A stretch of DNA of 64,000 nucleotides. Origin: Liolophura sinensis (Eukaryota; Mollusca; Polyplacophora; Chitonida; Chitonidae). Of this stretch, positions 25,287-63,226 are shown piece after piece (position 1 is the first letter of the stretch; each line of letters begins with the position of its first letter). The translations under genes and the position numbers were made by a program. The notes under the pieces are model-generated. The model made no database searches. It was given only the letters and a program-made list of their open reading frames with translations, and had not been told where the DNA came from. The stretch covers positions 5,952,001 through 6,016,000 of the forward strand of contig NC_088304.1 in NCBI RefSeq assembly GCF_032854445.1, read 5' to 3'.

Positions 25287-28200
25287 ATGCCCTCTCTGCG
25301 ACGTAAAGCGACGGTAGGGGCAGCGTTCGGCTGTGTGCTGGTTGCGAGTGTATACTTGACTGTGTACCACGGGTCGTCACGTTATCATGTCCGACCCCTG
25401 AACCATATACGTGCCTGCAGGCAGTCACGAGCAAGCAGTAAGTACCCAGATATAATAATATATAAACCCTGTGTCCGGCATGAGTCGAACTGACTATTTA
25501 AAATGACCGAAGAGCTGTACTATGTACGTATCATACTTGTATGTTGCAGCTACATGTATAAAAATGTTTTCCTATTTTTTTTAGTATTCTTACTGAAATC
25601 CGTAGGTGCGAAGGTCTGTCAGCAACCTCAGTGCGATGGTCGTGGGTTTTGTCCGGTTTCCTCCCACTGAAATGCAGGTCGCCGTCGTATAAATGAAGAT
25701 TTTTTTTCTTTTATGTACGGTGTAAATTTCCAATCAAATTAATAGATATTGAAATAATATGCCAAGAGAGCAGAATCTTCAAAAATCAATTTTTTTAACT
25801 GAACTGACTTTTCCTCAGTTAAACGCTTTCTTAGGTGGATGTTCCTCAAGGTGGACTTTTCCTCATGTATACATCCTACCATGTGGATATTCCTCTAGGT
25901 AGACTTTCCTTCATGTGTATAGTCTACCATGTGGCAATTCCTCATTGTGGACTTTTCCTCATGCGTACATCCTACCATGTGGATATTCCTCAAGGTGGAC
26001 TTTTCTTCATGTATACATTCTACCATGTGGATATTCCTCAAGGTGGACTTTTCCTCATGTATACATTCTACCATGTGGATATTCCTCAATGTGGACTTTT
26101 CCTCATGTGTACATCCTACCATGTGGCCATTCCTCAAGGCAGACTTTTCCTCATGTACACATCCTACATTTGGATATTACACGAGGTGGACTTTTCCTCA
26201 TGTGTACATCCTATCATGTGGATATTCCTCTGGGTGGACTTTTCCTCATGTACACATCCTACCATGTGGATATTCCTCAAGGTGGACTTTTCTTCATGTG
26301 TACAGTCTACCATGCGGCAATTCCTCAAGGTGGACTTGTCCTCATGCGTACATCCTACCATGTGGATATTCCTCAAGGTGGACTTTTCCTCGTGTACATT
26401 CTATCATGTGGATATTACTCATGGTGGAATTTTCTTCATGTATACATCCTACCATGTGGATATTCCTCCAGGTGGACTTTCCCTCATGTACCCATCCTAC
26501 CATGTGGCTATTCCTCAAGGTGGACTTTCCCTCATGTACCCATCCTACATGTGGATATTACACAAGGTGGACTTTTCCTCATGTGTACATCCTACCATGT
26601 GGATATTCCTCTGGGTGGACTTTTCCTCATGTACCCATCCTACCATGTGGCTTTTCCTCAAGGCAGACTTTTCCTCATGTACACATTCTACCATGTGGAT
26701 ATTCCTCAAGGTGGACTTTTCCTCATGTATACATTCTACTAAGTGGATATTCCTCAAGGTGGACTTTTCCTCGTGTATACATTCTACTAAGTGGATATTT
26801 CTCAAGGTGGACTTTTCATCATGTATACATCCTACCATGTGGATATTCCTCTAGGTGGACTTTTCCTCATGTGTACATCCTACCATGTGGATATTCCTCT
26901 GGGTGGACTTTTCCTCATGTGTACATCCTACCATGTGGCTTTTCCTCAAGGCAGACTTTTCCTCATGTACACATTCTACTAAGTGGATATTTCTCAAGGT
27001 GGACTTTTCCTCATGCATACATCCTACCATGTGAATATTCCTCAAGGTGGACTTTTCCTCATGTATACATTCTACTAAGTGGATATTTCTCAAGGTGGAC
27101 TTTTCATCATGTATACATCCTACCATGTGGATATTCCTCTAGGTGGACTTTTCCTCATGTGTACATCCTACCATGTGGCTTTTCCTCAAGGCAGACTTTT
27201 CCTCATGTACACATTCTACCATGTGGATATTCCTCAAGGTGGACTTTTCCTCATGTATACATCCTACCATGTGGATATTCCTCTAGGTGGACTTTTCTTC
27301 ATGTGTACAGTCTAACATGTGGCAATTCCTCAATGTGGACTTTTCCTCATGCGTACATCCTACCATGTGAATATTCCTCAAGGTGGACTTTTCCTCATGT
27401 ATACATTCTACTAAGTGGATATTTCTCAAGGTGGACTTTTCATCATGTATACATCCTACCATGTGGCTATTGCTCAGGGTGAACTTTTCTTCATGCGTAC
27501 ATCCTACCATGTGGCCATTCCTCAAGGTGGGCTTTTCCTCATGTATACATCCTACCATGTGGATATTCCTTAAGCCGAATTTTTCCTCATGTGGATATTC
27601 CTCAAGGTGGACTTTTCCTCATGTGTACATCCTACCATGTGGATATTCCTCCAGGTGGACTTTTCCTCGTGTGTACACCATACCATGTGGATATTACTCA
27701 AGGTTTACTTTTCTTCATGTGTACATTCCTCAAGGTGGACTTTTCCTGTGCCGTTATTTTCTCAGTTTAACATAGGCTTCTTCCATTGCAGATAGTTTTC
27801 TAGTTGACATTTGTTAAGGCTGACTTATTTCACAATCAAAAAGTTTCCAAGGCGTCTATACATTTTATGCATTACACTTTCACTTATTTGATGGTGGTCG
27901 GTCTTTAGGGCGGAAAAACTCGCTTTATTGCGGGCTGCGCCAACAAATTTGTATCTCTTCCCTTATCGACGGCACTATAAAAAGTAGTGTTTTTTTTTTA
28001 AAGAAAGTACTCTTGTGCCTTTGCAACAGTTCAGGCGTCAACTGTACGTGGTTTCTTTAAAATTCCCAAAACTCACTGAAGAACTAGACGCTCAAGTACA
28101 CGTACCGTATGACATCTTCACTTGGATTTCTTTACTCTCTATACTGCAGTAACTATATTTCTCTTTTTTTTTCAGATAAGCTTAACTTTACTGTGGTGAC

Positions 28201-28957
28201 GGCCCTGTTTGACATTGGCCGCGGTCAATGGCGGAGACAGACCCGGCCATTCTCGCAATATCTCGACTTTTCTCTTCAGTTGCTCAGTTTGGATGTGAAC
28301 ATGGTTGTGTTCGTCGACCCGAAAGCTTTGGATTTCGTTCGGAAACATCGCGTGGCCTGTCAAGACAGGACAGTGATAATCCCAACAAAACTTGGGCAGT
28401 TGGAATATTACAAATATCGTTCTCGGATGAAGATGATTATGTCGTCTGACGAGTTTCAAAAAGACAATCAGCTATTGAATAATGCTGAGGGGTTTTCTCC
28501 AGACTACGATATCGTCATGAATTCAAAGTTTTATCTCTTGAACAATGTCACGTACTCGAATCCGTTTAACTCTTCTCACTTTATGTGGGTCGACTCCGGT
28601 TACGGCCATGGACAAGATATTGGCTTTCCCGAAAATGGCGTTTGGATTCCAAAGAGGTTCCTGGCGACCAAAAACACAGTGACCGTTATACAGATGAACA
28701 ATCCCAAAGATTTTCAAAATGTTCCTCAGCTTTATAAACTCGACACGGAGCCGGCGTTTGTCGGGGGATGTTTTGGTGGGGATAAAAATGCCGTAAGGCG
28801 GTTACATGTCATTCATAACTACTTGTTCAAAAAGGCCATGAATAATGGCTGGGTGGACGATGACCAGACGTTTTTATTACTCAGTTACTATAACAGTCCG
28901 GAGCTCTTCAATCCCGTCAAAGGAGGTTACTGGTCTGTTTTTGATGTACTGGCATAA
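25287..28957 (+). CDS. HtrL/YibB-family protein, predicted type II membrane glycosyltransferase-like
   Basis: Two exons, 25287-25437 and 28176-28957, join in phase to 933 nt (310 aa plus stop). The N-terminus MPSLRRK is followed by a hydrophobic segment at residues 8-27, a typical signal anchor facing the secretory lumen. From residue 54 the protein shows the HtrL/YibB pattern: FTVVTALFDIGRG, FVDPK (96-100), a central FMWVDSGYG (187-194) and WVDDDQTF (276-283). The family is named after an E. coli gene beside the LPS core genes; its activity is unproven, but the fold is thought to be glycosyltransferase-like. NVT and NSS sequons (174 and 182) fit a luminal location. The ATG was chosen because it begins the signal anchor and the splice phase fits. 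The 2738-bp intron contains a SINE fragment and the 48-bp minisatellite. A polyadenylation signal follows at 29027. Confidence 0.85.
25605..25745 (+). repeat. SINE family A 3' fragment
   Basis: In the intron of the HtrL/YibB-like gene. AGGTCTGTCAGCAACCT, GGTCGTGGGTTTTGTCC and GCCGTCGTATAAATGAAG follow the family A order, ending TACGGTGTAAATTTCCAATC. The tRNA-like head is missing. It lies about 90 bp before the minisatellite starts. Confidence 0.75.
25832..27749. repeat. Minisatellite, 48-bp unit, about 40 copies
   Basis: The unit runs CATGTGGATATTCCTCAAGG, TGGACTTTTCCTCATGTATA, CATCCTAC (48 bp in all). It fills most of the intron of the HtrL/YibB-like gene. Some units are shortened by 3 bp (near 26165 and 26545) or replaced by variants such as CTAAGTGGATATTTCTC. 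Variants recur at 288-bp (six-unit) and 336-bp spacing, so blocks of several units have themselves been duplicated. Because 48 is divisible by three, every frame stays open or closed as a whole, which creates long artefactual open frames on both strands. Confidence 0.97.
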
Positions 28958-31920: not shown

Positions 31921-34026
31921 ACCACGTAATAACCTTAAACCAGTTCGAAATACACTATGATTAAAGATAACATAAAGTCTGCCACTGTATATACATAGAA
32001 AAAGGGATATAGGACAGAGTTATCACAGAAGATATGTAAAACATTCTATAGAGTTTTAAAAGCGTCACATGATAACTGGTTGTCACGTCAAAAAAGCAAT
32101 GGCCTATATCGATATAGTGTGGTTTCCAAAATTGGATAGCTCCTAGGTTTTGTGACGTCACTCTAGATAGCTATAACATGGCAAAATGGCGTCATCAATG
32201 AATGGCGAGGTACTGACGATTGTTTGCTATTTATTTTGTTGATAAGCTCTGTAGAATTTTGAGAATATTTTTGGAACATTTCTGGAATACTACTTTATTA
32301 TTTAATTCAGATTTAATGGCTGACATTATGTTCACTTTCAAGAGTTTATCTTTACAATCGTCTTCTTGCCAATTGCTTTTCTAAGTGTAAATAATTTTCA
32401 TGTAGGATGAAATTAAAAGAAAACAAAAACTGAAACACAAAAGTCTTTTCCGGAACAAACGTCAAGAGGGATTACCGTCACGTGGTTCGATTTAACGGGA
32501 TTTAAACGAACCAATCAATTAACAGCACAGCAACCCGGATGTACAACAAGGCTTGTTGCTTCAGCTATACATCATAATCTGACAACTGCCTCTTAAAAGG
32601 ATTAGCCTTTCAAGACGTTAATCTGGTTTGTTCAGGTATGTTCATTTGAACTATAACTCTCATAATTGCTACTAATCCCTCATAATCCGTATATGACTAT
32701 GTAGAGTGACCCATGTCCGTCCAGAACTGGATTTTGATGTCCATCCAAAGAATTTCAGGTTGCATGTCATGCAAGCTACAATGTTATTTTTTTTGGATGC
32801 GGGGAAAGTATCCCACGAAGCGGTTCTTGAGGTGAAAATTATTTTGTATAGCATTTTATGATATTGCCTTAAGAAAAAGTGGTAAATATTTTTATGTAAG
32901 GTCAGAGATGAAACAATCGGAACGCAGGTCACGTTTACCTGTCATGTTTATTACTGTATACCTTTAACTGTCTATTGTTGATACAGACTATATCCGGTAC
33001 ATTTTGGAAATACATTGCGCTTTATACATTACATGAAGGTTTCTTGAAAACGGTACGGATATTTTGAGGCAATATAATAATACAAATTATTTATACCAAA
33101 TTTATCTCACTTTTCATTGATTTCTATCTGGAAAATAACATAATCTGCTCTCTAAAAATAATCGAAAGATTAAAATGTTTTTCGGAAGTGTTCATCTCTA
33201 ACTAGGATATAGGCCTACACTTGAACTTGAACCAACAAATATATATATACATGAACAGACTTGCGCTTGAAAGTTTGTACTATATACACATGGTTTTTAA
33301 TCTCGTGTGTAAACATGTAGCCAAGGAGCGCCCCACAGCGCAGCCGAAGTTGATAGCAGGGTGGACAAGATAATCTGACGATCATAAACCGTAACCGAAT
33401 ATCACTAACTGGCTTACTTTCTGTGTAAAAGAGGCTGGAGTCATACAGGGCTTTCATCACACATGAAAGGGCTATAGGGCTTTCATCACTACGGCATCAT
33501 GCGCAATGCTGTCTGGCTTGAATTTCGCACCCTTTAAACTTTTTGCTGTGCCGATTTTAACAAAATTTAGCTCTTAGAGTATTGATGATTGGTTGATCGG
33601 AAGCCATCGAAAATTTGGTAACGTTTCTGGCTGCCTTGAACTAGGTTTCGTCCATGTCGAATTACACGGTGGTTTACAAAAGTCTGTGCCTACTATTGCT
33701 AGATGAGCAGTGCCTTGTAGAAGAGTAATAAAGTGAAGACATCAATCATGTAAAATGTGAAACACAATCCGTTAAAGTACGGGTTAACAATGGGCCTGGT
33801 AAAACACGTGTAAACGCTCAAGTTTGTTACCAAGTTCATTGTCAAATTATGCTCTAACATTTTGCATATAATGACGTCGAATAGAGTTGATGAAATAAGA
33901 TATAAAATGTTGGATTGGTTTGTCGGTCGTCTATGAATTTCATAAGAATACATACTGTTTATACACATTAGTTTTATTTACTAATGTAAACTTTGAGACA
34001 ACAAAGCAAACGTCTTACTCATTCTA

Positions 34027-34234: not shown

Positions 34235-34605
34235 ACAGGTATTAACTGACAGTGACACAAATGTGTTCACGGTATGGGGGAAATCCCTTTATGATTATTA
34301 CATACACAAGATAAAGGGGCCAGAGAATTGTCCCATATGTGGCCTGTTAAAGGGTAAGCCCAAGGGAGAGGGAATCAATACTCCGCAGGGTGGTGGGTTG
34401 GTTTGATGGGACGGCCCCATCGGGTGAGGGCTTCACTCCATGGGAACAGACAAGCTAATCAGCATTAGGAATCAGCGTGGCAGATATCGGTGTATATAAT
34501 CTCCCCGTCATAAAACAGGAGTCATAACAACTCAGACATTAGACCAGAGAAGATACACAGTTAACCTGCTAATACATGTAAACGTGAAAGCTCGAGACCA
34601 CAGAC
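34235..34605 (+). promoter_or_regulatory. TATA-containing promoter and 5' UTR of transglutaminase-like copy 1
   Basis: GTATATAAT at 34492-34500 is a strong TATA-box candidate about 105 bp before the start codon, which places the transcription start near 34525-34530. The flanking sequence from CGTGGCAGATATCGG to the ATG is almost identical in copy 2. A second conserved block, ACTGACAGTGACACAAATG to AAATCCCTTTATGATTATTA (about 34245-34305), lies about 190 bp upstream and is separated from the TATA block by poorly conserved sequence. That pattern suggests a proximal regulatory element. Confidence 0.6.
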
Positions 34606-37582
34606 ATGTTGGACAAGATCACGGATACCTACGAACACTCAAAGACGAAGAACTTCTGTCGATCGGCGTCCCTTCGGATGAAACGGAAGATGAAGGACAT
34701 GAGTCGCGCTCTGACCTTTAAGAAAAGGTCATGGGATTTGTCGCAAAATTCCCATACTTCAAAGGTAAGGTTTACACTCAATCGTCTACAAAACGAAAAC
34801 GCTAAGCATTAAACTAGCTATTTGCTTTCTAGTCCAGGGACACATTTTTATAAATCTGTACGAAATTGGTCAGGAATAGGATTTATGCATTATGCACGCA
34901 GACGCGCAGGCTTTAAAGATAGCCAGATGACCTCCTGGATTTAATGAGAAATATACAGAGAACGAGTGTTTCATTGTCAATATACCAAGAGATAGACTAC
35001 TTAATAACCCCATTAATGGTTTCTCATTAACAATTTATTGATTTATTTTCAGGACAATTCCACCGGTGACGTCCGCAAAAATAAAAGCTGCATGGGCGAA
35101 GGGCAGAGCGACGTCACGTTGACGCTTCTGGCTAGCTTTGACGAAGTCTATCAGAGAGTGATGGAAACCTCACGAGATCTCTCATGTGCTATTGACAAGC
35201 TGGACGAGAACTCCCGCCTCCTTGCTCCATTGATATCGACACCTGAGGAGACAACAGCACATACCAAACCCAAAACCGATCAGGTCAGTTGTCACATTAT
35301 CTTTCTGCTCTTTATGAAAACCCTCTAATGTATCTCGGTAAATTCAGTTGTTTTAAATGCAATGTCTTAAAACCCTGTTGGACTAAGGATTGTACGTGAA
35401 GCTACTTCCGTTCCATCAATAGTTATATTCAAACGTTAATATTACTCATCAGCTACAATTAACTTTTTTTATTAAAGGAAACACCGTTGGATAAAGAAAA
35501 GAGTGTCAAGAAAGATCATTCAGCTTCAGAGGCTGTTGCCTATTTGGATGACATTTTCACACAACTGGACCAGCATGCACTGCGGCAGTCATCACGTGAT
35601 TATACCAACTTGAATGACGTGGTTCAGGACCTTACAGCGATTTGCCAAAACGAAAAGGATCTAGCTAGGTAAGGATATTAAACACAAAAAGAAAAATTCA
35701 CACAATCATCCCTTTCTAACTCGGCAAGTGTATAACACTTTTTTTTTACCCTGTTTCACTATTCCATACACTTTTTATTATGCTCTTCTGAAGGTTTTGA
35801 AAGATCCCTCTGAATCGTGCCGCAATCGTAAAAAGTTATGGGACTATTGCCCTGCTTGAGACATGTGGGAACAAGAATGTTAACACCTCCCAACTCAGCT
35901 GGAAAACAACATCTCAAAACAAATGCTAGATGCTAATTCCTCTTTGCTCTGTCTTCAGGGTCCTGTTCCGCTGGGTTGTAGCTGTGTCAGGGAATATCAC
36001 CTCCTCCGATCTTCTCCAGGTTTACAGGACTGGACACGACTCTTATCATCGTCTCTACCGGGAACTTTGCAGGTAAATAATCCGAAGCCTTTTATGTCTT
36101 AAAGTTAAAATTGCACAGAAATAGGTTTAATAAAAAGACACTCCACTAGTCTACTTTTTCTCGAAGATTGTAGATTTTAGGACTTCCATATTATCTATAG
36201 CTGACTATTTGACTCTCCATACTTTTTGTTTTTACAGAATTGCCGGGCTCAGTTGTCGCATCATCGTGGGTTGGTCGAAAGGCGTCGGATACAAACCAAA
36301 CATGGCACTGACCGACATTTTCCGGAACTGCTGGACGGCTGTTTCCATAGACGGTGCGTGGAGATTTGTCAACTGCGTGTGGGCGGCCCGCCATGTGACG
36401 TCAGATGACGAGAATGACGTCACTGTTGAGCGATATGATGACTTCTACTTTCTGACAGAAGCTGAGGACCACATTTCCCAGCATTATCCCGACGATCCGG
36501 AATGGCAGCTTCTTGACACACCCCTTTCCATGGACGACTTTCTTCATCTTCCTGTACTGAAGTCGGCGTTTTTCCATCACGACCTGTCGTTTCCGACCCC
36601 TGTCTTCAGTCGGATGACGACAGACACGGGGGTGATAGACATTCGCCTGAACACTCCAGAGATTTTCGCTTTTGGATCCGTCCTGGAAACCTGTGAAGCG
36701 GGCCCGATGAATCGAATCGAGAACTGCGTTCTTCAGACGGTCGTGGATAGCAACACAGTGGTCTTCCGTGTGAGTCTGCCTTATCCAGGGCGTTATTACT
36801 TCTCTGTGTATGTGGGAGACTACTGGCAACCGCAGTCCCTGGAGACTGCTTGTTCTGTGCAGCTAGACTTTACGGGAGCGGGTCACCCAACCAATCCCTT
36901 CCCAGTACCACACCCACCTGTTCCCTTCTACGGCCCAACCCCGGTCAGCGGTACGCTGGGAGTGTCGTGTTCAACATCTGACCCTTTGATTGTGGTCGCT
37001 GATGACAGTGACCTTGAATTGACCTTTAACATCCCTGACGACGTCTCCGTTACTCAGACCTTTCAGTATCATCACAGCCAATCAGGAGCTCTGATAGATA
37101 TGGACCGACTGGCCCTTGCAACGTCCAGGACTAACCAGAGACTTCGTTATTCGTTCCGTTGCAGCAACCAGGGTTACTACGTTTTCTCGATGTACGGTAC
37201 GAAGGACGTCACGGTACCACTAGACTGTGTTTACCGATGCCTGATCTTTGCCCAGCACGACTCCCCCAGGGCTTGCCCCTTTCCGGTGCTTCATTCCAAA
37301 TGGACGGACTGTACGCTCCATTCTCCACTGAATGGCGAACTGACCCCAAACAGCGTTCAAACATTCAAACTGGACGTCCCTAAAGCCGAGAGACTTTCCG
37401 TTTCCGTATCTGGTAAGACTTTCTCACTGGGACGGGCGTCTGACGGTTCTTGGGAAGGAGACATTTTCATTGGTGAATCTGGTTCCGTCGTCAAGGTGAT
37501 GGGTGAATTCAGAGACAGTAATGGAGTCTCTACTTCCTGTTTGTTGAATTATATCCTGGAACCAAGGGAGACAACTGTTTGA
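34606..37582 (+). CDS. Transglutaminase-like (KY/hillarin family) protein, predicted catalytically inactive, copy 1
   Basis: Five exons, 34606-34764, 35053-35283, 35478-35668, 35959-36072 and 36238-37582, sum to 2040 nt (679 aa plus stop). Residues 1-193 are charged and unrecognised, with helical stretches. Residues 194-330 follow the KY/hillarin transglutaminase-like core: VLFRWVVAVSGNI, YHRLYRELCR, IAGLSCRIIVGWSKGVGY, WRFVNCVWAARHV, FYFLTEAEDHISQHYP, EWQLL. Residues from about 340 to the end look like two beta-sandwich domains, as in KY relatives. The usual catalytic Cys (in GVCxGY) falls at GHDSY (219-223) with no Cys, the His of NHxW is replaced (N262-C263-W264), and the Asp of VDxTW is N277. 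I therefore infer a structural or binding pseudoenzyme. No signal peptide is seen. KY relatives act at muscle and cytoskeletal sites, but the role here is unknown. Confidence 0.88.
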
Positions 37583-37624
37583 CGCGACAAAACTGACATA
37601 CAAATTGTGCTTCATAGTGTGCTA

Positions 37625-37630
37625 AATAAA
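37625..37630 (+). terminator. Polyadenylation signal AATAAA, copy 1 gene
   Basis: AATAAA lies 43 bp after the stop codon at 37582. The equivalent place in copy 2 (near 44165) reads GTGCTTTAAACTTTAC, so the hexamer is lost there and copy 2 must use another site downstream. Confidence 0.6.
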
Positions 37631-37867
37631 CTTGACAAAGTTCCTCAGTGCTTGTTTCTAATATTTCAGATGTTTTATTGTTTCCTTGAAAATCTATTTA
37701 TCTAAGGTTTCGGATAAAATCAGTGTGGTTTCATACTGATCAGATATATCTGTTGTAATATCAACGTGTGTTATCTTTGTAGACTTCAAAATTATATTTT
37801 ATTAAACAGTTCTACATTTACTCTTATTCAATGTGTCTTGATTTTCGTCTCTCTCTGTAATATCATA

Positions 37868-38025
37868 TTATTGATTTTATTAATTTGATTGGTGTTTTTT
37901 TTACGCCCGTGCTCAGGAATATTTAACCTTCTGCCAGCATTATGAAAGTGAAACCCAAGACCGTCCTCAGGTTGCTGCATACCTTCACACTTACGCCCGG
38001 TGTAGAAGGCGGCATGATTTGGAGA
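37868..38025 (-). repeat. SINE family A copy, inverted and truncated
   Basis: The plus strand reads TTTATTAATTTGATTGGTGT, TTTACGCCCGTGCTCAGGAA, CCAGCATTATGAAAGTGAAA, CCTCAGGTTGCTGCATACCTTC. It has the family A tail and body order without the tRNA-like head. Confidence 0.75.
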
Positions 38026-38776
38026 AGAAAGGGCCAAGTAATAATGTATAGGGATAACCAATCCCCTGATTGGCTGACAGTGAAGATAGCACATATAGCT
38101 GCCATTACGTACAGGCATATACTGTTAAATCGATTCTTTAATCGGTACAATAATTAAAAAAATTATCTTTTCAATCGTTTCCTTTACCAGTTGTTGTGAG
38201 GCCATTCAACACGGAATACAATCTCTGGCTAAAACATGTTAGTTTTGTGTAAATTAATTTTTTTACAAGATATGATGAGAAAGGATTGAAACATTGAGAC
38301 ACCAAAGTGTTTTCCGGAACAAACGCCAAGAGGGATTAGTGTCACGTGATTCAATTTAAGGGGGTTTAAGCGGACAAGTAAATTAACAGCCCAGCAACTC
38401 GGATGTACTTCAAGGCTTGTTGTTTGAGCTATATATCACAATCAGACAACTACGTCTTAAGAGGATTAGTCCAATCAAGCTGTTAATCTGGTCTGGCTAG
38501 GTATCTTCATTTCATCTTAACTCTCATAATTGCTTTTAATCCCTCATAATCCGTATATGACTATAGAGTGACCGATGTCCGCCCAGAACTGGATTAATGT
38601 TTATCCAAAAAAATTCTGGTAAAATGTAATATAAGCTATAATGTTATTTCTTGGATGCGAAAAAATATGGTATAAGATGTCATTCAGATAAAAGTTATTT
38701 TGTATCTAATTTTATGATAGTACTTGAAGAAAAAAAAAAGACTTTTAGATTAAGTTAGTTCAGTTCGCGATCTCTT

Positions 38777-39011
38777 CATGACAAGTGGCCTCTCACCAGT
38801 GCGATCGCTGTGAGTTCAAGCTCAGCTCATGCTGGCTCCCTCTCTGGCCGTATGCAGGAAGGTCTTGCAGCAAACTGCAGATGGTCGTGGGTCCTGTGTC
38901 GTGGCTCTGCACGGTTTCCTCCCACCATAATACTGGCCGTCGTCTTATAAGTGAAATATTCTTTAGTACGGCATCAAACACCAATCAAATCAAACCAAAT
39001 CTCCATGACAA
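38777..39011 (+). repeat. SINE family A copy, 5'-truncated, inside copy 2 upstream region
   Basis: The body runs GGCCTCTCACCAGTGCGATC to CTTTAGTACGGCATCAAACA and the tail is CAATCAAATCAAACC. CATGACAA occurs at 38777-38784 and 39004-39011, extendable with one mismatch, as a probable target-site duplication. It is absent from the matching part of copy 1, so it inserted after the segmental duplication. Confidence 0.85.
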
Positions 39012-39387
39012 TACTGGAATTGGAAAAGACTTCATATTTCTGCGAAAGAGAAAGTTCGTATAAGTGATACGTTCTTCAATAAATAAATAGATTTACAGCT
39101 ATACCAGTCATAAATTTACAGTCATATCAAAGGTCTTAACAATTTCCTCTACAATAACTGATATCCACATTTTTCAAAGGTATCCCACACGGAAATGCAC
39201 ATGATATGGGTAAGTGCTTGGAAGTCACACACTTAGCAGACGACCATTTTATAACATCAGTGTATATACCACCAGAAACCCGCATCAGCCATACATTCAC
39301 TCCGCCATCCACATAAGGCCACATAATCTCGTAATCTAGTACCAATCTATAACATTCATCCAAATTTCTAAGCCAGGCACAATTAAT

Positions 39388-39418
39388 ACTTTAGATTTAA
39401 GTGTATTAAATCTAAAGT
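39388..39418. repeat. Inverted repeat (12-bp arms, 7-nt loop)
   Basis: ACTTTAGATTTA (39388-39399) and TAAATCTAAAGT (39407-39418) are perfect reverse complements around AGTGTAT. It is within the ~790 bp absent from copy 1, so it could belong to an inserted element, but no terminal structure was resolved. Confidence 0.8.
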
Positions 39419-40754
39419 TATATCAAAAAAATGTATAGTTATTCATTGCAGGAGATGCGATAATGCAAACCATGGCTTTGAGATGGAAACTACATCCGGT
39501 AAATTTGTATGTATAGCCAGAAACAATCAAATCAAATGAATCAGACGGAACGCAGGTCATGTTCACCTGTCATGTTTATCACTGTATACATTTAACTGTC
39601 TTTTATTAATAAAGCTATATCCGGCACACTTTACAAATATTCAGTACCAGTTAATTCGTGCATTTTATTCGCTATACATTGCGCTTTTTAGGTGAAAGTT
39701 TCTTGAAAACAGTAGGTATATTTTCAGGTAATATAATAATAGAAATTATTTGTACCAACTTATCTGAGGTTTCCTTGATTTCCAACTGGAAAATAACATA
39801 ACCTGCTCTCTGAAAATATGCTAAAATATAAACTTATTATCCGGAAGCGTCCATCACTATCCAAGATATATACCTGAACTAACAAAGATGTATATTCATG
39901 AACAGACCTGCGGTTGAAGTTTTGTTGCACTTCCTACACATGGTTTTAAAGCTCTTTTGTAAACAACCGGAATTTCTGGTAGGGTGGATAAGAAGATCTA
40001 TCGATCGTAAACTTCAACCACAATTGGCTTACTTCCTGTGTAGACGAAGCGGGCGTCATAGGGCTTTCGCCCCACATGCGCATTACTGCATCATGCGAAA
40101 TCTAAATTGGCTTGAATTTTTCACCCTTGGACTTTTGCTGTGCCCATTGTAAGCAGAGGTAGCGTTTAAAGGGATAATGTACGGTTGAGTGGAAGTCATC
40201 GTAAATTCGACAAGGTTTCTGGCTATCTTGAAAAAGTGATGGTCCATGCCGAATTACGCTGTGGTTTACCAAGGTCCATATCTACTATTGCTAGATGAGC
40301 ACAGCCTTGCAGAAGAGTAACAAATCCAAGTTATAAATTGGTGAAAATGTCAGTATACAAATATGTTAAAATATATGTTAAAATACGGGTTGACAGTGTG
40401 CCTGATAACAGACGTGAACGCTTAAGTTTCTTGCCAAGTTCATTGTGAAATTATGCTTTAACAGTTTGCATACAATGACATCGAATAGAATGTTGACATT
40501 CTTTAATACATAAACTGTTGGATTGGATTGCCGGTCGTCTTTAAATTTGCAATCTGTTTATGTCTGTATAGATTTGTTGACAAAAAAAGTGTCGCGTGCT
40601 TTTGTTTACTGAAAGTGTTGTGCATGGAAACCAAGTTTTTCAGTGAAAAAAAAAACTAAAGAAAATAAAACGGTGTGGTGCGTAAACTTACGGAACACTC
40701 TTTAGACAAATGTGCTTGGACAGGCTTGCAATATTAACTTATCAGTCACAGGTG

Positions 40755-41125
40755 TTAACTGACAGTGACACAAATGTGTTCACGGTATGGGGGAAATCCC
40801 TTTATGATCATTACATATACATGATAAAGTGGACAGAAAGTCCCCCCATTGGTGCCCTGTTAAAGGGTAAGCCCAAACACACACGACAAAGGGAATCAGT
40901 GCTCCACAGGGGATGGGTGGGTTTGACGGAACAGCCCTACCAGTGGAGGGCTTCACCCCACGGGAACGGCCAAGCCAATCAGCATTAGGAATCCGCGTGG
41001 CAGATTTTGGTGTATATAATCTCCCCGTCATAAAACAGGAGTCATAACAACTCAGACATTCGACGAGAGAAGATACACAGTTAACCTGCTAATACATGTA
41101 AACGTGAAAGCTCGAGACCACAGAC
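40755..41125 (+). promoter_or_regulatory. TATA-containing promoter and 5' UTR of transglutaminase-like copy 2
   Basis: GTATATAAT at 41012-41020 sits at the same distance from the ATG as in copy 1. Both conserved blocks of the copy 1 promoter are present (ACTGACAGTGACACAAATG near 40758 and the TATA-to-ATG stretch). The DNA between them is diverged and carries a few indels. Confidence 0.6.
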
Positions 41126-44118
41126 ATGTTGGACAAGATCACGGATACCTACGAACACTCAAAGACGAAGAACTTCTGTCGATCGGCGTCCCTTCGGATG
41201 AAACGGAAGATGAAGGACATGAGTCGCGCTCTGACCTTTAAGAAAAGGTCATGGGATTTGTCGCAAAATTCCCATACTTCAAAGGTAAGGTTTACACTCA
41301 ATCGTCTACAAAACGAAAACGCTAAGCATTAAACTAGCTATTTGCTTTCTAGTCCAGGGACACATTTTTATAAATCTGTACGAAATTGGTCAGGAATAGG
41401 ATTTATGCATTATGCACGCAGACGCGCAGGCTTTAAAGATAGCCAGATGACCTCCTGGTTTTAATGAGAAATATACAGAGAACGAGTGTTTCATTGTCAA
41501 TATACCAAGAGATAGACTACTTAATAACCCCATTAATGGTTTCTCATTAACAATTTATTGATTTATTTTCAGGACAATTCTACCGGTGATGTCAGCAAAA
41601 ATAAAAGCTGCATTGGCGAAGAGCAGAGCGACGTCACGTTGATGCTTCTGGCTAGCTTTGACGAAGTCTATCAGAGAGTGATGGAAACCTCACGAGATCT
41701 CTCATGTGCTATTGACAAGCTGGACGAGAACTCCCGCCTCCTTGCTCCATTGATATCGACACCTGAGGAGACAACAGCACATACCAAACCCAAAACCGAT
41801 CAGGTCAGTTGTCACATTATCTTTCTGCTCTTTATGAAAACCCTCTTACGTATCTCAGTAAATTCAGTTGTTTTAAATGCAATGTCTTAAAACCCTGTTG
41901 GACTAAGGATTGTACGTGAAGCTACTTCCGTTCCATTCATTGTTATATTCAAACGTTAATATTACTCATCAGCTACAATTAACTTTTTTTATTAAAGGAA
42001 ACACCGTTGGAAAAAGAACAGAGTGTCAAGAAAGATCATTCAGCTTCAGAGGCTGTTGCCTATTTGGATGACATTTTCACACAACTGGACCAGCATGCAC
42101 TGCGGCAGTCATCACGTGATTATACCAACTTGAATGACGTGGTTCAGGACCTTACAGCGATTTGCCAAAACGAAAAGGATCTAGCTAGGTAAGGATATTA
42201 AACACAAAAAGAAAAATTCACACAATCATCCCTTTCTAACTCGGCAAGTGTATAACACTTTTTTTTTTTACCCTGTTTCACTATTTCATACACTTTTTAT
42301 TATGCTCTTCTGAAGGTTTTGAAAGATCCCTCTGAATCGTGCCGCAATCGTTAAAAGTTATGGGACTATTGCCCTGCCTGAGACATGCGGGAACCAGAAT
42401 GTTGATCTTGGTATAACATCTCCCATCTCAGCTGAAAAACAATATCTCAAGACAAATGCTAGATGCTAATTCCTCTTTGTTCTGTCTTCAGGGTCCTGTT
42501 CCGCTGGGTTGTAGCTGTGTCAGGGAATATCACCTCCTCCGATCTTCTCCAGGTTTACAGGACTGGACACGACTCTTATCATCGTCTCTACCGGGAACTT
42601 TGCAGGTAAATAATTTGAATTTTATGTCTAAAAGTTAAAATTGCACAAAATTAGGTTTGATAAAAAGACACTCCACTAGTCTACTTTTTCTCGAAGATTG
42701 CAGATTTTAGGAACGCGATATTATCTATAGCTGACTATTTGACTCTCCATACTTTATGTTTTTACAGAATTGCCGGGCTCAGTTGTCGCATCATCGTGGG
42801 TTGGTCGAAAGGTGTCGGATACAAACCAAACATGGCACTGACCGACATTTTCCGGAACTGCTGGACGGCTGTTTCCATAGACGGTACGTGGAGATTTGTC
42901 AACTGCGTGTGGGCGGCCCGCCATGTGACGTCAGATGACGAGAATGACGTCACTGTTGAGCGATATGATGACTTCTACTTTCTGACAGAAGCTGAGGACC
43001 ACATTTCCCAGCATTATCCCGACGATCCGGAATGGCAGCTTCTTGACACACCCCTTTCCATGGACGACTTTCTTCATCTTCCTGTACTGAAGTCGGCGTT
43101 TTTCCACCACGACCTGTCGTTTCCGACCCCTGTCTTTTCTCGGATGACGACAGACACGGGGGTGGTAGAGATTCGCCTGAACACTCCAGAGATTTTCGCT
43201 TTTGGATCCGTCCTGGAAACCTGTGAAGCGGGCCCGATGAATCGAATCGAGAACTGCGTTCTTCAGACGGTCGTGGATAGCAACACAGTCGTCTTCCGTG
43301 TGAGTCTGCCTTATCCAGGGCGTTATTACTTCTCTGTGTATGTGGGAGACTACTGGCAACCGCGGTCCCTGGAGACTGCTTGCTCTGTGCAGCTAGACTT
43401 TACGGGAGGGGGTCACCCAAACAATCCCTTCCCAGTACCACACCCACCTGTTCCCTTCTACGGCCCAACCCCGGTCAGCGGTACGCTGGGAGTGTCGTGT
43501 TCAACATCTGACCCTTTGATTGTGCTCGCTGATGACAGTGACCTTGAAGTGACCTTTAACATCCCTGACGACGTCTTCGTTACTCAGACCTTTCAGTATC
43601 ATCACAGCCAATCAGGAGCTCTGATAGATGTGGACCGACTGGCCCTTGCGACGTCCAGGACCAACAAGAGACTTCGTTATTCGTTCCGTTGCCGCAACCA
43701 GGGTTACTACGTTTTCTCGTTGTACGGTACAAAAGATGTCACGGTACCGCTAGACTGTGTTTACCGATGTCTGATCTTTGCCCAGCACGACTCCCCCAGG
43801 GCTTGCCCCTTTCCGGTGCCTCATTCCAAATGGACGGACTGTACGCTCCATTCTCCACTGAATGGCGAACTGACCCCAAACAGCGTTCAAACATTCAAAC
43901 TGGACGTCCCTAAAGCCGCGAGACTTTCCGTTTCCGTATCTGGCAAGACTTTCCCACTAAGCCAGATGGCTGACGGTTCGTGGCAAAGAGACATTTTCAT
44001 TGGTGTATCTGGCTCCGTCGTCAAGGTGATAGATGAATTCAGAGACAGTAATGGCGTCGCTTATACTTCATGCCTGCTGAGCTTTGACGTTCTGGAGGAA
44101 AGGGAGACAACTGTTTGA
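41126..44118 (+). CDS. Transglutaminase-like (KY/hillarin family) protein, predicted catalytically inactive, copy 2
   Basis: Five exons, 41126-41284, 41573-41803, 41998-42188, 42492-42605 and 42768-44118, total 2046 nt (681 aa plus stop). Exon 1 is identical to copy 1. Exons 2-5 differ at scattered positions (for example VRKNKSCMGEG versus VSKNKSCIGEE, and GAWRF versus GTWRF). Divergence is concentrated in the last 55 residues, where copy 2 has SFDVLEERETTV against NYILEPRETTV. The same three catalytic replacements are present (GHDSY 219-223, N262-C263-W264, N277), so the loss predates the duplication. The open frame and all splice sites are intact, which argues that both copies are functional genes rather than one being a pseudogene. 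Confidence 0.88.
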
Positions 44119-59717: not shown

Positions 59718-62700
59718 TCAGTATTCCAAGAGTTCAGGGTCAACAGGTTCAAGGTCATCGCTGCCAATGGAGGGTATGGGTGAAACTCTCCCAATCAGGG
59801 GATCCCAGGTTTCTTTATAACCAAGAACAACTTCCTTTTCAGTGTCTTTCTTTGAGGATTCTGTTAAAGCAGTTTCTGCTACTTTTGAATTGTAATCTTG
59901 GTCATTTTCATTAACATTAACAATCATCTCATTACTGAGAGTGCTCTCAGTTTGGGGTTTCTCAGGATGATCTTGCGTTGTTGAACTTCTTGAATTTTGA
60001 TAATTTCCCTCCTCACCAGAACTGAAGTCATTGTCTATTTTCTTTTCAGTCTTTACCAAAGTTTCTTTATCATTACTGCTTTCAGAAAGAATCAAAATTT
60101 CTTTCTTGGAGTCAGCTTCAGGGATTTTCTCTTTCTCTATGGCTTCTTGGTTTTCTTTGTTACCCAGAAGAGACTGACTTGCAGATGTTCTGTTGAGAAC
60201 GTCACTAGATTCATTCCTGGAAATGACTGATGTTTGACTGCTGTTGGAAGAAGCAACAATGGAACTTCTATTAGATGGAATTGTTGTGTCTTTGTTCCAG
60301 TTGACACTTTCTTTCTCAGTGGCTGATCCTACCCTGACTTTCGTCACTTTGGGTTTGCTTTCCTTCCCCAGATTGCTAGAGCTTGTGCTAAGGCTCTCAA
60401 TATCTTTGCTATATTCTTTTGATGACAAAGGTTCAGCTTCAATGGAGTCCTTGCTACAATGGGAAACAATGCTGGTTTTGTTACCGTGGTTACTGGAGTC
60501 AGTAAAAAGATCTGTTGAAGACTTGGATGATTTCCTGCTGCTGACTTGATCTTTTCTACTTTTGGCAACCACATCGGTTTCTTCAGTGTAAGTTTCAGTT
60601 TCCAACATTGTTTTCCCTTCAGCACTTCTGACTGGCTTAGCATCAAAATTGCTTTCCTTTTGTGGAGAAGAATCTTTATCGTTCTTCTCTGCACCATCCA
60701 AGCCTGGTGTTTCTGTATCAGTTTTAAAGGTCTCTGTTTCAATATGTTGCTTTAACTGATCCGTCTTTTCTGATTTCTTTTTGGAAGCATCTTCCTGTGT
60801 TAAAGGTGCTTGTTTTTGGGACAAACTTTTCTTTGATGCTACAAGAAAGACGTAAAACATTAGAGCATCATAGTGTAATGACATTTGGACGTAACTTCAA
60901 TGATAGTGAGATAAACATTCTTCAAACTTATTTACTGTAATAATGGTGGATCTACCAGGGGATGCAGGCCTGTCCAAGCAATGCTCCATTAATTTGTTCA
61001 TTAATCATTTAACAATTTTACCACTGTGTTACCCAGTGGCAAGGAGAATTTAAAACACACAAGGGTTGCCCTGGCTTATAATAAAACCCTTTGGAACACA
61101 ATATTACAATCTAGGCCTGGCTCTGGTGATTAGGCTTAATGCCCAGATTAATCCCTGTCAGGAAATCAGGAAAATAACAAAGGACTTCAAAAGGTGCCAT
61201 GTTTTGCGCAAAGTCACAAAAAATTGCAAATTAGTTGCAAATTATTGTTAAAGTGAGCCCTCAATAGTATTGTCAATAATGTCTTTTATGTATAACAAAT
61301 AAAGATGTAGAGTATGAAATGTTGTGGAGCATGAAATGTTGTGGAGCATGAAATGCTGTGGAGCATGAAATGTTGTGGAGTATGAAATGTTGTGGAGTAT
61401 GAAATGTTGTGGAGCATGAAATGTTGTGGAGCATGAAATGTTGTGGAGCATGAAATGTTGTGGAGCATGAAATGTGGTGGAACTTGAAATGCTGTGGAGT
61501 ATGAAATGCTGTGAAGTATGAACTGTGGTGGAACATGAAATGCTGTGGAGCATGAAATGTGGTGGAGTACGAAATGTTGTGGAGCATGAGTATGAAATGC
61601 TGTGGAGCATGAAATGTTAAGAAGCATGAAATGTTGTGGAGCATGAAATGCTGTGGAGCATCAGTATGAAATATTGTGGAGCATGAAATGTGGAGTATGA
61701 AATGTTGTGGAGCATGAAATGCTGTGGAGCATGAAATGATGTGGAGCATGAAATCTTGTGGAGTATGAAATGCTGTGAAGCATGAACTGTGGTGGAACAT
61801 GAAATGCTGTGGAGCATGAAATGTTGTGGAGCATGAAATGTTGTGGAGGATGAAATGCTGTGGAGCATGAGTACAAAAGGTTGTGAGGCATAAAATACTG
61901 TGGAGCATAAGTATGAAATGTTGTGGAGCACGAAATGCTGTGAAGTATGAATTGTGGTGGAACATGAAATGTTGTTGAGTATGAAATGTTGTGGAGTATG
62001 AAATGTTGTTGAGTATGAAATTTTTAATACTATACTCAGCAATTTTCAGTTATATGACTATGGTCAGTTTTATGCCTAGGGAAAACTATGCCTTTCATAA
62101 CTTTTTGACCTTTCTCACATCTTGTGAGGTACAGATATGCTGTGCCATAGTGGTGGAAGATGAACAATCTTCAAGGAACGTTAGAGACTGTGCAAATGGC
62201 CATGCGAGCATCAACTTCTCTTTGTCACTGTCTATGGCCCACAAACACTGACAGCAAGGGAATTTATGAACTCCCTGTTCAACGCCGGTTTTGTGTGTTC
62301 TAGTCATTGAAAAACGAGTACCTCTAACCGCTAAACCATGGCTTGCTCATAACTGAATTATGTGGAGGTGCAGATACATGGCTCTGATTACACTGACTGT
62401 CCATCTGTTCTGTGATGCAAATTCTGTACAGCATCTGTTACCTGATTGGTTAGATGTGTCTACTCACAACTGATTTATGAGGAGGTGCAGTTACATGGTT
62501 CTGCTTACATTGACTGTCCCTCTGTTCTGTGATACAAATTCTGTGCAGCATCTGTTACCTGATTGGTTAAATGTGTCTGATCACAACTGATTTACGAGGA
62601 GATGCAGATACATGGTTCTGCTTACATTGACTGTCGATCTGTTCTGTGATGCAAATTCTGTGCAGCATCTGTTACCTGATTGGTTAGATGTGTCTACTCA

Positions 62701-63226
62701 CAACTGATTTATGAGGAGGTGCAAATACATGGTTCTGCTTACATTGACTGTCGATCTGTTCTGTGATGCAAATTCTGTACACCATCTGTTACCTGATTGG
62801 TTAAATGTGTCTACTCACAACTGATTTATGAGGAGGTGCAGATACATGGTTCTGCTTACATTGACTGTCCCTCTGTTCTGTGATACAAATTCTGTGCAGC
62901 ATCTGTTACCTGATTGGTTAAATGTGTCTGATCACAACTGATTTACGAGGAGATGCAGATACATGGTTCTTCTTACATTGACTGTTGATCTGTTCTGTGA
63001 TGCAAATTCTGTGCAGCATCTGTTACCTGATTGGTTAGATGTGCGTCCTATCCGCGACTTAGGTCTCACAGTTCCCTCCCTTGGTCTGTAACTGCCCGTG
63101 TCAATTGTCAGGGATGAACCAGACTGATCGGATGATATGTCAGATGACTCGTCACAATGTTTTGATTGGCTGGATTTTGTTTTCCGTTTTGAGTAGATCC
63201 TTTTCACATCATGGTCTTGGGGTGTT
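59718..63226 (-). CDS. Unidentified Ser/Glu/Lys-rich protein, C-terminal exons (partial)
   Basis: Minus strand. Two exons join in phase: 63226-63027 and 60838-59718 (stop TGA at 59720-59718). The first gives about 66 residues, TPQDHDVKRIYSKRKTKSSQ onwards, with Ser/Asp clusters and a basic RPKSRIGRTSNQ end. The second gives about 372 low-complexity residues rich in S, E, K, T and N, predicted disordered, ending with a proline/acidic motif WDPLIGRVSPIPSIGSDDLE and a final PVDPELLEY. The first exon needs two bases from an upstream exon, so the gene extends right, at least past 63226. I do not recognise the family. The conserved-looking C-terminal motif may be a short binding peptide. The 2188-bp intron contains two tandem arrays, one of which repeats the upstream exon's 3' edge. 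Confidence 0.6.
61303..62022. repeat. Minisatellite, 17-bp unit, about 42 copies
   Basis: The unit is ATGAAATGTTGTGGAGC with variants GCTGTGG, GTGGTGGAAC and GCTGTGAAGT, and occasional 9-10-bp partial units (ATGAGT, CATCAGT). Because 17 is not a multiple of three, each frame cycles through the same 17-residue pattern, so overlapping long open frames arise in all three minus-strand frames. It lies inside the intron of the right-hand gene. Confidence 0.96.
62347..63045. repeat. Tandem repeat, 117-bp unit, six copies, overlapping an exon edge
   Basis: ACCTGATTGG recurs at exactly 117-bp spacing (CCT at 62441, 62558, 62675, 62792, 62909, 63026). Units also share GTGTCTACTCACAACTGATT, GAGGAGGTGCAGATACATGG and TTACATTGACTGT. 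Variants of units 1-2 recur in units 4-5, giving a 351-bp higher-order period. The rightmost copy ends inside the coding exon 63226-63027, so the repeat includes the last bases of that exon and its splice donor. Confidence 0.96.

Follow-up and report, generated by a model that had tools for sequence, protein, structure and literature searches.

A tandem pair of probable KY/hillarin-branch pseudoenzymes within a chiton gene family lacking the catalytic cysteine at every locus read

Introduction

What keeps two neighboring genes intact when the proteins they encode carry a transglutaminase-like (TGL) core but none of its catalytic residues? The question is raised by a 64,000-nucleotide stretch of the genome of the chiton Liolophura sinensis (hereafter, the window). 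An earlier note, made from its letters, had proposed that a tandem pair of KY/hillarin-type paralogues in it has lost the catalytic Cys, His and Asp, and that the intactness of both copies argues for selection on a non-enzymatic role. Mollusc studies report proteins of this family as 'kyphoscoliosis peptidase', a name implying an enzyme. Here, we examine the gene models of the pair, its place in the family, the state of the triad across the genome and the selection acting on the core.

Results

Two intact five-exon genes

The pair consists of two intact genes of five exons each, copy 1 at 34606-37582 (679 aa) and copy 2 at 41126-44118 (681 aa). Translation and a splice-site check of both copies revealed no stop codon within either gene model and GT-AG borders at every intron, as had been read from the letters. 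The exons are:

34606..34764, + strand: copy 1 exon 1, basic N-terminal module (RALTFKKRSWDLS), with a GT donor and an open frame
35053..35283, + strand: copy 1 exon 2, unmatched, predicted with low confidence to be a helical linker (secondary structure from a model at a pLDDT of about 30 only), with AG/GT borders and an open frame
35478..35668, + strand: copy 1 exon 3, linker, the 3' half encoding the helix that precedes the TGL core
35959..36072, + strand: copy 1 exon 4, the Cys-site exon, from RVLFRW to GHDSYHRLYRELCR, with His220 in place of Cys
36238..37582, + strand: copy 1 exon 5, the remaining TGL core with Asn262 (His position) and Asn277 (Asp position), KY-type Ig-like repeats and the stop codon
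41126..41284, + strand: copy 2 exon 1, same sequence as copy 1 exon 1
41573..41803, + strand: copy 2 exon 2
41998..42188, + strand: copy 2 exon 3
42492..42605, + strand: copy 2 exon 4, the Cys-site exon, same sequence as copy 1 exon 4
42768..44118, + strand: copy 2 exon 5, the remaining TGL core, Ig-like repeats and the stop codon

The first 193 residues had been described as matching nothing recognizable. This holds for residues about 54-164, for which no match was found, but not for the two ends of the segment. Residues ~165-194 form the helix before the TGL core and align with paralogues, and exon 1 has homologues upstream of the cores of L006 and L012, two loci of the same clade, where the counterparts stop at similar donor sites; identity to the L006 counterpart is 43.6% over 39 residues.

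Elsewhere in the window, a 289-aa open frame at 28088-28954 (+) gives a strong match to HtrL_YibB (Pfam PF09612, 4e-52), whose name derives from bacterial proteins that have no known function. A long tandem-repeat tract at 25806-27750, with copies 82-86% alike, is open in three overlapping frames (279-519 aa), and two adjoining tandem-repeat arrays (about 81% and 92-96% alike) lie at 61301-63043. The 392-aa open frame at 59721-60896 (-) had no match in Pfam and PDB searches.

Family and fold

The relationship to KY and hillarin was confirmed by Pfam Ig-like_KY (PF23265), which matches the window protein over two stretches and above the gathering score (E 3.5e-26), and by the KY-style continuation after the TGL core (FYFLTDPE...WQLL...) in the family alignments, where G, K, W, AV, W and W form invariant columns. 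The genome scan likewise gave two Ig-like_KY matches per copy, the second one in copy 2 below the cutoff, and the domain order of core followed by Ig-like repeats is that of KY and hillarin. Transglut_core (PF01841) scored 17.6 bits on the window protein (E 0.0047), under the Pfam cutoff of 23, whereas it passed the cutoff on the relative L026 on C6 (34.1 bits, E 3.5e-08), so that membership of the pair in the TGL superfamily rests on transitive homology. Matches in the PDB, to the ciliary protein FAP246 and weakly to 9crn (E 0.061), also tie the family to the TGL fold. An AlphaFold model computed from the two near-identical window sequences was too poor for fold use (pLDDT 30.5); the order of its elements (helix 220-233 and strands 238-246, 261-269 and 272-279) fits the TGL fold. 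An NCBIfam search returned nothing meaningful, and a Transglut_core search of the chiton genome, run exon by exon and hence too insensitive, yielded one match only, a PNGase-like gene.

The triad is replaced in both copies

When 22 family sequences were aligned, both copies had H220 in the Cys column, N262 in the His column and N277 in the Asp column; these residues are, in the same order, the His of G-H-D-S-Y, the Asn of N-C-W and the first Asn of V-N-C-V-W. L026 serves as the anchor for these columns: it retains both His and Asp and can be aligned, albeit weakly, to the TGL-domain protein 9crn with both residues in place; FAP246, a stronger match than 9crn, likewise has His and Asp there. 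Neither copy thus has the Cys-His-Asp triad of an active transglutaminase or peptidase, and the proposed loss of all three residues stands. Judged by these columns, the pair is presumably without enzymatic activity. An exchange of places between His and Cys was considered and rejected, as the Cys of N-C-W sits one residue beyond the His position. We also searched for a missed exon that could supply the Cys, and found none with the motif C-x-[GASNTED]-[YFWH] in the introns scanned (1-4 of copy 1, 3-4 of copy 2); such an exon is unlikely because the paralogues have the same Cys-site exon.

The loss is older than the pair

Cys was absent at all 24 family loci with a readable Cys-site exon (a few loci are decayed), in a search that covers one genome and gives lower bounds. 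Lys is common among the replacements (L005, L025, L026, L029, L030, L041 and L044), the other states being His, Gly, Arg, Thr, Glu, Leu and Gln. Among the loci read, His is kept only at L026, L044 and L072, and Asp at L025, L026, L029, L044 and L047 (L072 left out of this count). The clade on chromosome 10 to which the pair belongs has Asn-Asn throughout at the His and Asp positions (tree support 100/99); the C7 gene L035, with Thr-Asn-Gln, branches closest to it. Since Lys is spread over deep branches, it was probably the ancestral state of the Cys site in this genome. A synthetic consensus of an active KY core, used as a query for a Cys-bearing member, recovered the same family; the extras, a gene at C7:42.53 Mb and a Cys-site exon assigned to L044, are both without Cys. 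A candidate Cys-site exon at L063 (KKKGGYS) was rejected, as it lacks the LFxxLCR continuation.

The residues are thus gone from both copies, as the earlier note had it, but they were not lost in the pair: the loss predates it. As far as the aligned loci indicate, interest centers on an old KY family without the Cys, together with its Asn-Asn clade on chromosome 10, rather than on the pair.

Could activity have been kept by another arrangement, for instance through Cys278 beside the old Asp site, or through His220 as a nucleophile or ligand? Cys278 (V-N-C-[VT]-W) is retained in nearly all of the chromosome-10 clade, and the block surrounding it is highly conserved. However, a Cys in the same place also occurs in L025 and L047, which keep Asp, and L011 has Ser, so that Cys278 looks structural; residue 220 differs within the clade (H, K, G, R, T), and no His or Asp partner remains. 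We therefore regard such an arrangement as improbable. The Lys at the Cys site of other members may be another candidate for different chemistry.

Several relatives are pseudogenes (L028, L022 and probably L044), which indicates that the family turns over. The KY-like gene at G000:C6:71.33-71.34 Mb (L044, L071) retains His and Asp and has Lys in place of Cys; several frame changes lie in its later exons, and it is probably a decayed copy, with the intact gene L026 nearby. Several frames at G000:C6:68.82-68.85 Mb have KY-type Ig-like domains and no TGL match, and are possible KY relatives minus the TGL core.

An old duplication, probably followed by gene conversion

Two tracts record the relationship between the copies:

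34441..37430, + strand: homogenized tract of copy 1, 94-100% identical to copy 2 at about 40960-43970 (identity profile)
32385..33940, + strand: upstream part of an old tandem duplication, 70-79% identical to 38247-40548 (self-BLAST)

Over the gene bodies, introns are as alike as exons (intron 1 has a single difference in 288 sites and is 99.7% identical), while the upstream flanks of the copies are 70-80% identical. The longest identical run, 393 bp at 34546-34938, was reached in none of 2000 shuffles of the differences, and dS between the copies is 0.016 in the N-terminal part and climbs to 0.185 at the C-terminal end. Indels between them keep the frame. This identity pattern is best explained by an old duplication that was followed by gene conversion.

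A gene body that is 94-100% identical between neighbors could also come from an assembly that set two haplotypes in tandem, and the published assembly has a heterozygosity of 1.24% at a HiFi depth of only 14x (PMC11068029). But over >1.5 kb of upstream flank the copies are 20-30% different, and at the 3' end dS reaches 0.18; both values are far above that heterozygosity and make an artefact of this kind highly improbable.

Because the copies look gene-converted, the intactness of two of them does not amount to two independent pieces of evidence. The argument from intact copies to selection is accordingly weak, and the constraint on the core makes the better case for a retained role.

The dead core is the slowest-evolving part of the protein

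The TGL core is under purifying selection and is the slowest-evolving part of the protein. Comparison of the window protein win1 with L005, L006, L011, L012 and L013 gave 56-63% identity in the TGL core versus 24-40% in Ig1, Ig2 and the C-terminal parts, and mean pairwise identity was 0.73 in the block around the dead His-Asp sites and 0.33 in Ig1. Synonymous sites are saturated in most paralogue comparisons; where core dS could be estimated it exceeded 2, with dN of about 0.33-0.37. These core figures are pairwise counts rather than a codon-model test. Constraint on the TGL core across such old paralogues argues for selection for a non-catalytic role, and this part of the original proposal is probably right.

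Between the two copies, dN/dS was 0.45 (26.5 synonymous and 40.5 nonsynonymous differences), with nonsynonymous changes below the neutral expectation (binomial p about 0.001), a ratio that rests on 67 differences and is biased by conversion. The N-terminal 193 residues alone gave a copy-versus-copy dN/dS of 0.82, on 8 changes.

These data also bear on whether the genes were inactivated recently and are drifting, their frames being intact through shortness of time or through copying by conversion. The pseudogenes among the paralogues (L028, L022 and probably L044) and the homogenization of the two copies speak for such a history. Against it, the loss of the triad is older than the saturated divergence from L005, L006 and L011, over which frames, splice sites and the 56-63% core have persisted, and the indels between the copies are in frame. 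We consider recent inactivation unlikely.

Discussion

Both genes, in our assessment, probably encode pseudoenzymes of the KY/hillarin branch, and the most likely role of the protein is that of an intracellular cytoskeletal adaptor or scaffold. Under this interpretation, the common ancestor of the chiton KY-like genes would already have been without the catalytic Cys, probably replaced by Lys; the chromosome-10 branch would then have fixed Asn in place of both His and Asp and multiplied through tandem duplication, the pair being the product of one such duplication that is undergoing homogenization by gene conversion. The constrained TGL core and the KY-type Ig-like repeats would bind cytoskeletal partners, possibly clients of the filamin or septin type, and the basic module encoded by exon 1 may contribute to localizing the protein. 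The binding function as an adaptor is suggested by the relatives, namely KY with filamin C, hillarin with septins, and Cyk3.

More speculatively, the Asn-Asn pocket of the chromosome-10 clade might be a repurposed binding site that selection kept while the clade grew in chitons and the Cys position and the Ig-like repeats diversified. Such a history would have given the lineage its own set of pseudoenzyme adaptors, in cells of the foot, muscle or radula, for example.

Hillarin and D-Hillarin, the W180-domain proteins, we take to be the invertebrate branch of the pair's family. The vertebrate member, KY (kyphoscoliosis peptidase), after which Ig-like_KY is named, has a TGL core and KY-type Ig-like repeats as in the pair, but it retains its putative catalytic residues whereas all three are replaced in the chiton proteins. 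KY binds filamin C at the Z-disc, and no enzymatic activity has been demonstrated for it despite the conserved residues (PMC6078408). Hillarin acts by way of septins (PMC3081291 and references therein), and the radular-tooth cusp proteins of the chiton Cryptochiton stelleri include a hillarin, membership in the present clade not being implied (PMC6351634).

The fungal protein Cyk3 resembles the pair in having a TGL domain without the catalytic Cys, and this domain is still required for the stimulation of Chs2 in cytokinesis (PMC4758748, PMC7773586). Cyk3 differs in retaining His and Asp and in having an SH3 domain, where the chiton pair has Asn-Asn and Ig-like repeats. Among proteins of solved structure, FAP246 of the ciliary central apparatus (PDB 7n6g) matches best by sequence, and the match takes in the WQLL motif that follows the core; the Cys is absent there as in the pair, Ser standing at its position in the pairwise alignment, but FAP246 keeps His and Asp and is an axonemal protein with other domains (PMC9113940). 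EPB42, XPC/Rad4 and CC2D2A are further catalytically dead precedents with the TGL fold, several of them with scaffold or binding roles (PMC10318531), and belong to other branches of the superfamily than the pair. Dead TGL proteins such as Cyk3, EPB42 and XPC are therefore already known, and the chiton family adds a variant to them: the Cys is missing from every member read, and still the dead core is conserved more than any other part. Should this be general, the job of the family would be binding rather than catalysis, which bears on whether vertebrate KY is an enzyme.
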